Source: Thermosipho sp. (in: thermotogales) (lineage in GTDB: Bacteria > Thermotogota > Thermotogae > Thermotogales > Fervidobacteriaceae). From it: a stretch of 34,359 bases of DNA. Position 1 is the stretch's first letter, and each line of letters opens with the position of its first letter. The DNA is taken from positions 1 to 34,359 of the forward strand of contig JACDNZ010000019.1 in the NCBI GenBank assembly GCA_017656345.1, in the 5' to 3' direction. Made by a program: the position numbers and the translations under genes. The notes beneath the pieces were generated by a model. That model did not search any database, was not told where the DNA came from, and saw only the letters and a list, made by a program, of their open reading frames with translations. Below are positions 22,537 through 25,506 of this stretch, piece after piece.

Positions 22537-23379
22537 ATGATATACATTGGAGCACATATGCCTATAGGTGGTGGTTTTAAAAGAGTTCCAAGAGAAACTG
22601 TAGAAATTGGTGGAAATACCTTTCAAATCTTTCCACATAATCCTCGGCAATGGAATGCCAGTTATCCAAAAGAAGAGGACATAAAAAAATTTAAAGAAGG
22701 GTTGCACAAGTTTAATATAATGCAACAATATATGTTATGTCATAGTGGGTACTTAATTAATATTGCAAGCCCTAAAAAAGATGGATGGGAAAAATCATTG
22801 AAACTTCTTATAAAAGAAATGGAAATCTGTAGTATGCTTGGAATAAAATATTTAAATATTCACCCTGGAAGCCACTTGGGAATCGGCGAAGAAGTGGGAA
22901 TTAAAAAAATAGTTGAAGCACTCAATATTGCGCTTGATTCTGAAAAAAACACCATTATTTTACTGGAAAATGTCACAAAAAAAGGTGGAAATATTGGCTA
23001 CAAAATTGAACATTTGAAAAAAATTATTGATAAAGTTAAATACCCAGAAAGACTTGGAATAACAATCGATACCTGCCATGCATGGGATGCTGGTTATGAT
23101 ATAGTAAACAAGCTTGATGAATTCCTAACAATGATTGATAAATTAATTGGCTTAAATAATTTAAAATTTATCCATCTAAACGATTCAAAAAATGAACTCG
23201 GTTCAAATAAAGATAGACATGAAAACATCGGAAAAGGAAAAATTGGTAATGATGGATTAAAAGTCTTTCTAAATCATGAAATAATTAAAAAAATACCCTG
23301 GATACTTGAAACACCAGGAGATAATGAAGTACATAAAAACGATATAAAAGAAGTATTAAAACTTGTAGAGGTGAATTAA
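22537..23379 (+). CDS. nfo: Endonuclease IV (AP endonuclease family 2)
   Basis: A 280-residue TIM-barrel zinc enzyme that cuts abasic sites in base-excision repair. IGAHMPIGGGF is the start. FQIFPHNPRQW, LCHSGYLINIASP, LNIHPGSHLG, ILLENVTKKGGNIG, ITIDTCHAWDAGYD, FIHLNDSKNELGS and DRHENIGKG cover the Zn-binding His, Glu and Asp residues. Length is normal. ATG start with AGGTGGTGA upstream. It is 105 bases after nadE and abuts the patatin gene (TAA then ATG). Confidence 0.96.
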   Translation: MIYIGAHMPIGGGFKRVPRETVEIGGNTFQIFPHNPRQWNASYPKEEDIKKFKEGLHKFNIMQQYMLCHSGYLINIASPKKDGWEKSLKLLIKEMEICSMLGIKYLNIHPGSHLGIGEEVGIKKIVEALNIALDSEKNTIILLENVTKKGGNIGYKIEHLKKIIDKVKYPERLGITIDTCHAWDAGYDIVNKLDEFLTMIDKLIGLNNLKFIHLNDSKNELGSNKDRHENIGKGKIGNDGLKVFLNHEIIKKIPWILETPGDNEVHKNDIKEVLKLVEVN

Positions 23380-24177
23380 ATGAAAATAGGTTTAGCATTG
23401 GCAGCAGGTGGTGCAAAAGGATTTGCACACATTGCAACATTAAAACTCTTAGAAGAATATAAAGTTAAACCTGAGATAATCACAGGTTCTTCAGCTGGAG
23501 CAATTGTCGCAGGATTATATGGTTTATACGAAGACAGTGAGATTGTATACGAAAAATTCTCAACTGCTGTTGAAAAATTTCTTCCTTCATTTAAAAAATA
23601 TTACGACAAGTTAAATAGAAAAACTGGAATATGGGGGATACTTCAAAGATCATTAGTTCCTATTGAAGATTATTATCCTTTTTTTAAATTTTTATTTGGA
23701 AAAAAGAAATTCAGTGATTGTAAAATAAAAGTTGGTATAATAACATTCGATAATTCAAACATGGATTCTATGTTAATTACGGAAGGCTACCTTGTAGATG
23801 CCATAATGGCAAGTTCATCTGTCCCAGGAGTTTTTTCACCTGTATGGATTGCCGGTGTTCAAAACACAGATGGGGGTGTTCTTTCACCTGTACCAGTTTC
23901 AGAAGCTTTTTCAATGGGAGCTAATTTCGTAATTGCAAGCACTTTTTTGAGAAAGCCTACAAATTTTCCTAAAGATCAGTTGGAATTAATGTTCTACATT
24001 GATACTTGGAAAGAAATTGAAATAGAGTATATTGATTTAGATAAAGCAAATGTGGTAATATATTATAGGTTCCCCTATGAATGGTATGAATTTTTGAGAT
24101 ATAAAGAAATATACAATTCTGCTCTTTCCTATGCTTATGAAAGGAGAGAAGAATTTGACCCTCGCTTTTGGAGGTAA
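23380..24177 (+). CDS. Patatin-like phospholipase (RssA type)
   Basis: A 265-residue serine lipase-fold protein. ALAAGGAKGFAHIATLKLL supplies the glycine-rich oxyanion loop. G36-S-S38-A-G40 is the nucleophile elbow, and N-T-D164-G-G supplies the Asp of the Ser-Asp dyad. SSSVPGVFSPV precedes it. All catalytic parts are present, so it should be an active acyl hydrolase of unknown substrate. No signal peptide. ATG directly follows the nfo stop. The next gene is a diverged, probably inactive relative. Confidence 0.9.
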   Translation: MKIGLALAAGGAKGFAHIATLKLLEEYKVKPEIITGSSAGAIVAGLYGLYEDSEIVYEKFSTAVEKFLPSFKKYYDKLNRKTGIWGILQRSLVPIEDYYPFFKFLFGKKKFSDCKIKVGIITFDNSNMDSMLITEGYLVDAIMASSSVPGVFSPVWIAGVQNTDGGVLSPVPVSEAFSMGANFVIASTFLRKPTNFPKDQLELMFYIDTWKEIEIEYIDLDKANVVIYYRFPYEWYEFLRYKEIYNSALSYAYERREEFDPRFWR

Positions 24178-24886
24178 TTCAGTCCTTTATTTTTCATTAC
24201 CTGCTTTTTTCAAAGCTTGTGAAGAATTTAATCTAAAATTTGATGAGATACATTGCGTAGGTTTCTCCTGTATACCTGTATATTATTATCTAAAAACCGG
24301 TTCCTCAAATCAAAGTTACGTACTTTCCAAAAATCTATATGAAGACGCTATTAAAACTTTTCATTTTGCAAATGGTTTTAACTTTACAAACGTAATTGAA
24401 CAAATTAGAGCTTTGTATAAAGCATCAAAAACTTTAGCTGGTTTTAAAAGTCAAAAGGTTTTAGTGAAATTTGTAGAAAAATATTTTCCAGACGAAAAAA
24501 TAGATAAGAAACTAAAAATCCACGCATTTAACTTAAATACCTTTAACGATGAAATTCTACAAGATAATTTAAGGGAAGCAATAATAAAAACTTTAACTTT
24601 ACCATTAGAATTTGCTCCATATAACGGATATGTCTCAGGTGCTTGGGTATATGGTATTCCAGAAGCTGATTTTTTATTAATAATTCAAAAAACTTTTGAT
24701 GTGAGTTTGAACAACGCAGTTGATTTCATGGTTTACTCCACTTACGCAAGAACTCAAAAAATTATCAATCAAAGAATTAATAATGCAAAATACAAAATTA
24801 AAATTTCAACCAAAAATTCCAATCCCTTTAACTTATCAACAAAATTATATGAAATTTCAAAAAAATATATTGGGGGTATAATATGA
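24155..24886 (+). CDS. Degenerate patatin-like protein (probable pseudoenzyme)
   Basis: About 243 residues from TTG 24155, which has GGAG 8 bases upstream; the open frame reaches ATG 24131 but lacks a ribosome site there. From this start the protein lines up with the preceding patatin. TLAFGGNSVLYFSLPAFFKA matches the glycine loop and first helix, and V-G36-F-S38-C-I40 falls at the same numbers as the GSSAG elbow, but with Ile for the last Gly. The DGG motif appears as SGA (S161-A163), losing the catalytic Asp. So Ser38 remains but the dyad is broken. It overlaps the patatin gene by 23 bases and the next gene by 4 (ATGA). It is an intact reading frame, not a pseudogene. It may partner or regulate the active copy. 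Confidence 0.65.
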   Translation: MTLAFGGNSVLYFSLPAFFKACEEFNLKFDEIHCVGFSCIPVYYYLKTGSSNQSYVLSKNLYEDAIKTFHFANGFNFTNVIEQIRALYKASKTLAGFKSQKVLVKFVEKYFPDEKIDKKLKIHAFNLNTFNDEILQDNLREAIIKTLTLPLEFAPYNGYVSGAWVYGIPEADFLLIIQKTFDVSLNNAVDFMVYSTYARTQKIINQRINNAKYKIKISTKNSNPFNLSTKLYEISKKYIGGII

Positions 24887-25506
24887 AAAAACTTGTCTTG
24901 CTTTTTTTACTTTTTATATCATTTTTTGCATTCTCAAAAACCATTCATATTTCTTCAGAATACGTCGAACCAACTGAAAACTTAATTACTTATCAAGGAA
25001 ATGTAGTTGTGTTCATTGATTCAGATAATTTTGGTTTAAAAACCAATAGCATGCAAATCAAAAAAATCCAAAATAAATGGATAGATCTTTCAGCAACAAG
25101 TACCGTGCAAATTACATTTGAAAATGGCACCCTTGAAGGAGAAAATTTAAAATACAATATAGAAACTCAACTGGGATCTATTGAAAACGCCTCTTTAACA
25201 ATACTTGATGCTCAAAGTTCTGAGACTATATATATAAATTGTGACAACTTAGTTTTTGATTTAAATAATAATTACTTCACGGGAACAAGCAACAAAAACC
25301 AAGTAAATATAATTAAAGGTGCAATTAATGCAAAGTCTGATAAATTTATTTATGATAGAGAAAATGGAGAATTAATACTTGAAGGAAACGTCGAACTAAT
25401 TGACAACGAAAAAGATATCAAAATGAAAGCAAGTAAAATTGTCATTGATACACAAAATAATAATATGAAAGGCGAAAAAGTTCAAATAGAAATAGTGGTG
25501 GAATAA
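24883..25506 (+). CDS. LptA/OstA-like exported protein
   Basis: A 207-residue protein. Residues 1-18 (MKKLVLLFLLFISFFAFS) are a signal peptide. The remainder is repetitive beta structure of the OstA/LptA type: ITYQGNVVVF, GTLEGENLKYNI, AKSDKFIYDRENGELILEGNVELI and MKASKIVIDTQNNNMKGEKV. LptA forms the periplasmic bridge for lipopolysaccharide; Thermotogota are not known for classical LPS, so a different envelope lipid or glycan may be carried. ATG lies in an ATGA overlap with the pseudo-patatin, and it ends 1 base before miaA. Confidence 0.75.
   Translation: MKKLVLLFLLFISFFAFSKTIHISSEYVEPTENLITYQGNVVVFIDSDNFGLKTNSMQIKKIQNKWIDLSATSTVQITFENGTLEGENLKYNIETQLGSIENASLTILDAQSSETIYINCDNLVFDLNNNYFTGTSNKNQVNIIKGAINAKSDKFIYDRENGELILEGNVELIDNEKDIKMKASKIVIDTQNNNMKGEKVQIEIVVE

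Follow-up and report, generated by a model that had tools for sequence, protein, structure and literature searches.

A conserved and probably inactive patatin paralogue encoded in overlap with an intact patatin in Thermotogota

The stretch of DNA considered here – all 34,359 nt of a Thermosipho sp. contig (JACDNZ010000019.1, assembly GCA_017656345.1), hereafter the window – encodes, in overlapping genes, an intact patatin-like phospholipase (A) and a second protein (B), which is a patatin by descent, homologous over its full length, and which, judging from the residues it has lost, is probably catalytically dead. The reading we prefer, with a probability of roughly 0.58, is that B serves A as a pseudoenzyme partner, most likely joined to it in a heterodimer in which it replaces a homodimer's second subunit.

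Gene A (23380..24177, + strand; 265 aa) starts at an ATG that abuts the stop codon of the preceding gene, which encodes an nfo-like endonuclease IV (AP_endonuc_2; 22537..23379, + strand; PF01261, E 2.2e-52). It is the sole match to PF01734 in the window's genome (E 1.6e-32) and represents type I of the two types of pair described below. Its product carries the features of the catalytic patatin family: a GxSxG nucleophile elbow (GSSAG, G36–G40, 23485..23499, + strand, with the Ser38 codon at 23491–23493), the Asp of a DGG/DGA motif (here DGG, 23869..23877, + strand, with the Asp164 codon at 23869–23871) and a GGxR/KG glycine loop. Across a profile alignment of 78 intact A sequences, the Ser, the Asp, the Gly at S+2 and the glycine-loop Lys/Arg are each found in 78/78. 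By alignment, the short patatins of Thermotogota are also seen to be without the basic C-terminal tail of ~30 aa present in many patatins of outside bacteria.

Gene B (24155..24886, + strand; 243 aa) begins at a TTG codon preceded, at a distance of 8 nt, by a ribosome-binding site, AGGAG, that lies inside gene A (24142..24146, + strand). Since AGGAG followed by TTG is kept across the Thermosipho and Fervidobacterium relatives and the upstream ATG codons are not, we take the TTG at 24155 as the start and reject a longer ORF from the ATG at 24131. The original prediction – an intact frame, a TTG start with a well-placed ribosome site and translational coupling on both sides – agrees with what is found: the frame is open throughout, and B shares 23 nt with A and 4 nt with the following gene, C. 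Among 30 A–B pairs with a recognisable ribosome site at the start of B, the A–B overlap is exactly 4 nt in 25. Gene C (24883..25506, + strand; PF03968, E 5.2e-10) encodes an LptA/LptD_N-like secreted protein; in several families it comes third in the type I operon, adjoining A–B in genomes of the window's own family, in Thermotoga-like genomes and in those of family f10. To our knowledge, Thermotogota are not known for LPS.

The descent of B from a patatin emerges from comparisons of increasing depth. With BLASTP, B matches the adjacent A proteins of relatives at E values of ~2e-4 and 5e-4; hhalign of B against A gives 6e-12 with narrow profiles (29 and 30 sequences) and, with the full profiles (82 B, 78 A), a probability of 99.6 and an E value of 1e-23 over 249 columns. 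Against PlpD, a patatin of solved structure, a profile built from 59 B proteins gives an E value of 6e-8. PF01734 itself is matched at E≤1 by 25/59 B members (best 9.6e-16); the window's B is not among these, and no Pfam or NCBIfam family matches it above cut-off. Its weak Pfam matches (Mltc_N, DOT1) fall under the cut-off and are unrelated, and the PDB matches of the narrow B profile (USP6NL) are attributable to chance.

The predicted fold points the same way. An AF2 model of B, based on an alignment of B orthologues only (without A), is of moderate confidence (pLDDT 59.8, pTM 0.67; residues 167–228 unreliable), and in a Foldseek search with it the top 24 PDB matches are all patatins or PLA2 enzymes – among them PlpD, CapE, CapV, iPLA2-beta, VipD, ExoU and cPLA2 – with PlpD (5fya, E 2.2e-5) the best. 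Another AF2 model, built on the B of a Fervidobacterium, was too poor to use (pLDDT 41.6). An alignment mixing A and B was left out of structure prediction, as MAFFT misaligned the Asp region. Profile and structure searches, two of the checks proposed along with the original prediction, thus both place B with the patatins: the former as a relative of the A family, the latter, as far as a moderate model allows, as a member of the patatin fold superfamily. The unrelated fold that would have spoken against the original prediction did not emerge.

Within this shared framework, B departs from catalytic patatins in all three of the features retained by A: the GxSxG elbow, the DGG/DGA Asp and the glycine-loop Lys/Arg of the oxyanion hole. 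The two proteins are in register at the elbow, with G36 and S38 aligned in both, as had been noticed from the window alone; the elbow of the window's B, however, reads GFSCIP (G36–P41, 24260..24277, + strand, Ser38 codon 24266–24268), with Ile instead of Gly at S+2. This Gly is found in 0/82 B proteins, the other members carrying Leu, Ile, Phe, Val, Tyr or Met. The nucleophile Ser persists in 40/82 – in 29/29 close relatives of the window's B and in 11 of the other 53 – and is otherwise Ala, Gly, Thr or Pro (42/82). In place of DGG, and hence of the catalytic Asp, the window's B has SGA (S161–A163, 24635..24643, + strand). Because a narrow profile alignment had set a different B motif, PEGD, on DGG, which would rescue the dyad, this register was re-checked: the full 82-by-78 profiles and the alignment with PlpD both place SGA there, and PEGD was rejected as the true catalytic Asp motif. 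Only 1/82 B proteins has an Asp in the DGG column, and that member has Gly as its nucleophile; an intact elbow and the Asp occur together in 0/82, which bears out the proposed break in the Ser–Asp dyad for the family as a whole. In the glycine loop, the GG is kept in most B proteins, and the Lys/Arg position is taken by Gly, Ser, Phe and others (Lys in 5/82). The Ser38 that is invariant in the window's type I subgroup could, nonetheless, support some residual chemistry.

Selection has evidently kept B. In comparisons with usable dS, its dN/dS (NG86) is ~0.07–0.2, indicating purifying selection and lying near the 0.05–0.14 of A. Within the GTDB family every genome (20/20) has B, and all loci show the order A–B–C. 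A search across Thermotogota, first with the B profile and then with a broadened one, recovered the pair in most of the families sampled. A and B stand in tandem in families f1, f3, f4, f7, f9, f10 and f11, and the neighbourhoods of short patatins added another 49 tandem pairs, a B-like ORF following immediately 3' of A in each; two f7 loci first counted as lone A proved to contain a divergent B. Both its presence across the phylum and its dN/dS thus lend good support to the suggestion that B is maintained as a dead partner, and the pair shows one hallmark of enzyme–pseudoenzyme pairs: an apparently dead paralogue that purifying selection preserves and that is inherited along with a live enzyme.

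The co-occurrence is with short patatins. By an approximate hand count among the matches listed, in genomes that are not independent of one another, B is found in ~74/77 genomes with a short patatin versus 4/26 without; where all patatins are long (400+ aa), B is almost always missing. As to exceptions, B occurs without a detected patatin in two assemblies (G032, 88% complete; G087, 92% complete) and with only a long patatin in a third (G033, 87% complete), while G021–G023 have short patatins and no B. The genes flanking A–B vary by lineage – an FAD oxidoreductase, alanyl-tRNA synthetase, a class I tRNA synthetase or IPP transferase – so that the conserved unit is A–B, with C in several families.

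The wider search took in 390 genomes, ~287 of them from outside Thermotogota, where sampling was thin (some one or two genomes for each family). The best match of the B profile there reaches 3.7e-26; the 20 best loci, however, all score as A by a wide margin and contain GxSxG, and none has an adjacent B. The outside patatin loci inspected carry DGG, DGA, DGN or DGS as the Asp motif. A scan of genome contigs matched only Thermosipho and Fervidobacterium, and no relatives of B were found among viral contigs and plasmids. As sampled, B looks confined to Thermotogota.

The history of the pair can be read, with due caution, from trees of 91 and 62 rows. In these, B forms one clade (branch SH-aLRT 99–100), and the same division into types I and II is seen among the A and among the B proteins; this fits a single duplication giving A and B, followed by duplication of the pair. 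The type II pair is absent from the window's genome; some genomes of its family (G016, G012 and G019; loci L072, L081 and L084) have one as a second pair. Eight genomes, which come from few lineages only, have kept both A and B although the two are unlinked, and the types match (type II in G086, G088, G097 and G099; type I in G031, G034, G035 and G036). In G099 a distance of ~272 kb separates them on one contig; for most of these assemblies, 'unlinked' means that A and B lie on different contigs, each among other genes. A type II pair in family f9 (L152, G048:C16:41500-45500) has decayed jointly, A being split by a frameshift and B carrying an internal stop, and the sister genomes G042 and G045 have only long patatins and no B.

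Some further loci are worth recording in their own right. Two other f9 genomes, G038 and G040 (loci L022 and L023), have a type I pair nearer to the Thermosipho-like copies (identity 55% for A and 42–43% for B; C not adjacent) than the pair of Thermotoga-like genomes is, which suggests lateral transfer. At five f8 loci (L146, L147, L148, L149 and L150), B lies away from A and beside a Rex-like gene (Put_DNA-bind_N plus CoA_binding, as tested in L150); near B in most of them is a protein of ~200 aa, which in L150 has no Pfam match.

How, then, might A and B be connected? Their co-occurrence, the matching of their types and a single case of joint decay speak for a functional link, and the fact that a live and a dead paralogue are made together, and retained even when unlinked, leads us to suppose that they act on each other; co-inheritance of A and B also follows from linkage. 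The regulation or heterodimer that the original prediction envisaged would require physical binding and an effect on A, both of which we infer. In the course of events that we favour, B would have arisen in a single ancient duplication that preceded the diversification of the sampled Thermotogota families, and would have been kept since as the partner of A, both being made together from overlapping genes. It would bind A through the patatin core as a heterodimer and keep the active-site region of A (the catalytic-Asp segment), or the face that A turns to the membrane, in working order or under regulation, standing in for the second subunit that patatins such as PNPLA9/iPLA2-beta gain by homodimerising. 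PNPLA9 needs dimerisation via its catalytic domains, and contacts with a partner protein have been proposed, in a review, to order the segment with the catalytic Asp in patatins (PMC12871566). More speculatively, B might help membrane binding, A being without the basic C-terminal tail.

The same genetic evidence would be shared by a B that binds A not as an activating subunit but as an inhibitor or chaperone, restraining the lipase until some signal releases it, in the manner of SpcU and ExoU, and translational coupling would suit a guard made with its target. We consider this unlikely: no sign that A is toxic emerges from this analysis, G021–G023 keep a short patatin without any B, and SpcU is not known to be a patatin homologue. 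Still more doubtful is that B has a job of its own, for instance in lipid or acyl-chain binding, for which A is not needed, the old tandem simply having been inherited together. The unlinked copies in eight genomes, the two genomes with B and no detected patatin, and residues conserved specifically in the window's subgroup (B1: G6, G7, Y12, C34, S38, P41 and R199) could be understood in this way; the strong co-occurrence with short patatins, the matched types, the joint decay in one genome and the lack of B where only long patatins occur speak against it, and the two B-only genomes are incomplete assemblies. A rebuilt active site, in which B is still an enzyme using, for example, Ser38 and the Asp172 of PEGD, seems very improbable. 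It would be in keeping with the narrower profile, with a Ser38 invariant in 29 B1 members and with a position 172 that is Asp or Glu in 63/82, but the deeper profiles and PlpD put PEGD on the strand following SGA, Asp172 is Glu in several members, more than half of all B proteins have replaced the Ser, none has the elbow Gly, and most have lost the glycine-loop Lys/Arg. A decaying pseudogene or spurious ORF, as the lack of any Pfam or NCBIfam family above cut-off might have hinted, is refuted by the low dN/dS, the conserved start and ribosome site and the presence of B throughout its family.

If A and B are indeed partners, the consequences extend beyond the window. B is a previously unnamed protein family, conserved across a deep bacterial phylum and tied to a specific enzyme; the family is new and, on present evidence, amounts to a new version of enzyme–pseudoenzyme pairing, a phenomenon itself already known. 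Why patatins need a partner or dimer for activity has been discussed for human PNPLA9 and others, and a thermostable natural pair of a live and a dead member, with type-matched unlinked copies as built-in controls, would make this need directly testable. The pair also opens a way into lipid turnover in the envelope of Thermotogota, which is poorly understood. A wider picture, which we put forward as possible rather than probable, is that Thermotogota have phylum-wide obligate heteromeric patatins with the dead paralogue as second subunit, that types I and II are anciently duplicated and non-interchangeable, and that type I acts with the LptA-like envelope protein in the upkeep of toga lipids. 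In the open-access literature that we searched (subscription literature lay outside it), no account of a pseudoenzyme partner for a bacterial patatin came to light.

Several known systems nevertheless provide points of comparison. Paralogous enzyme–pseudoenzyme pairs, in which a dead copy is kept beside a live one under selection, are a general kind, and A and B resemble them in just this respect. With the patatins of PF01734, such as PlpD (PDB 5FQU/5FYA) and RssA, B shares the fold and a full-length register, but whereas A is a true member, B is without the elbow Gly, the catalytic Asp and mostly the glycine-loop Lys/Arg, and the window's subgroup lies below Pfam detection. SpcU (the partner of ExoU), Rab5 and ABHD5 are not known to be patatin homologues, unlike B, which is a paralogue of its presumed target A. 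The pairs they form – ExoU–SpcU, VipD–Rab5 and PNPLA2–ABHD5 – are nonetheless examples of patatin enzymes under the control of a separate protein (PMC12871566). There is also a likeness to PNPLA9/iPLA2-beta (PDB 6AUN), whose patatin catalytic domains pair for activity (PMC12871566); yet PNPLA9 is a homodimer of two live domains, whereas A and B would combine, in a putative dimer, one live and one dead domain encoded by separate genes.
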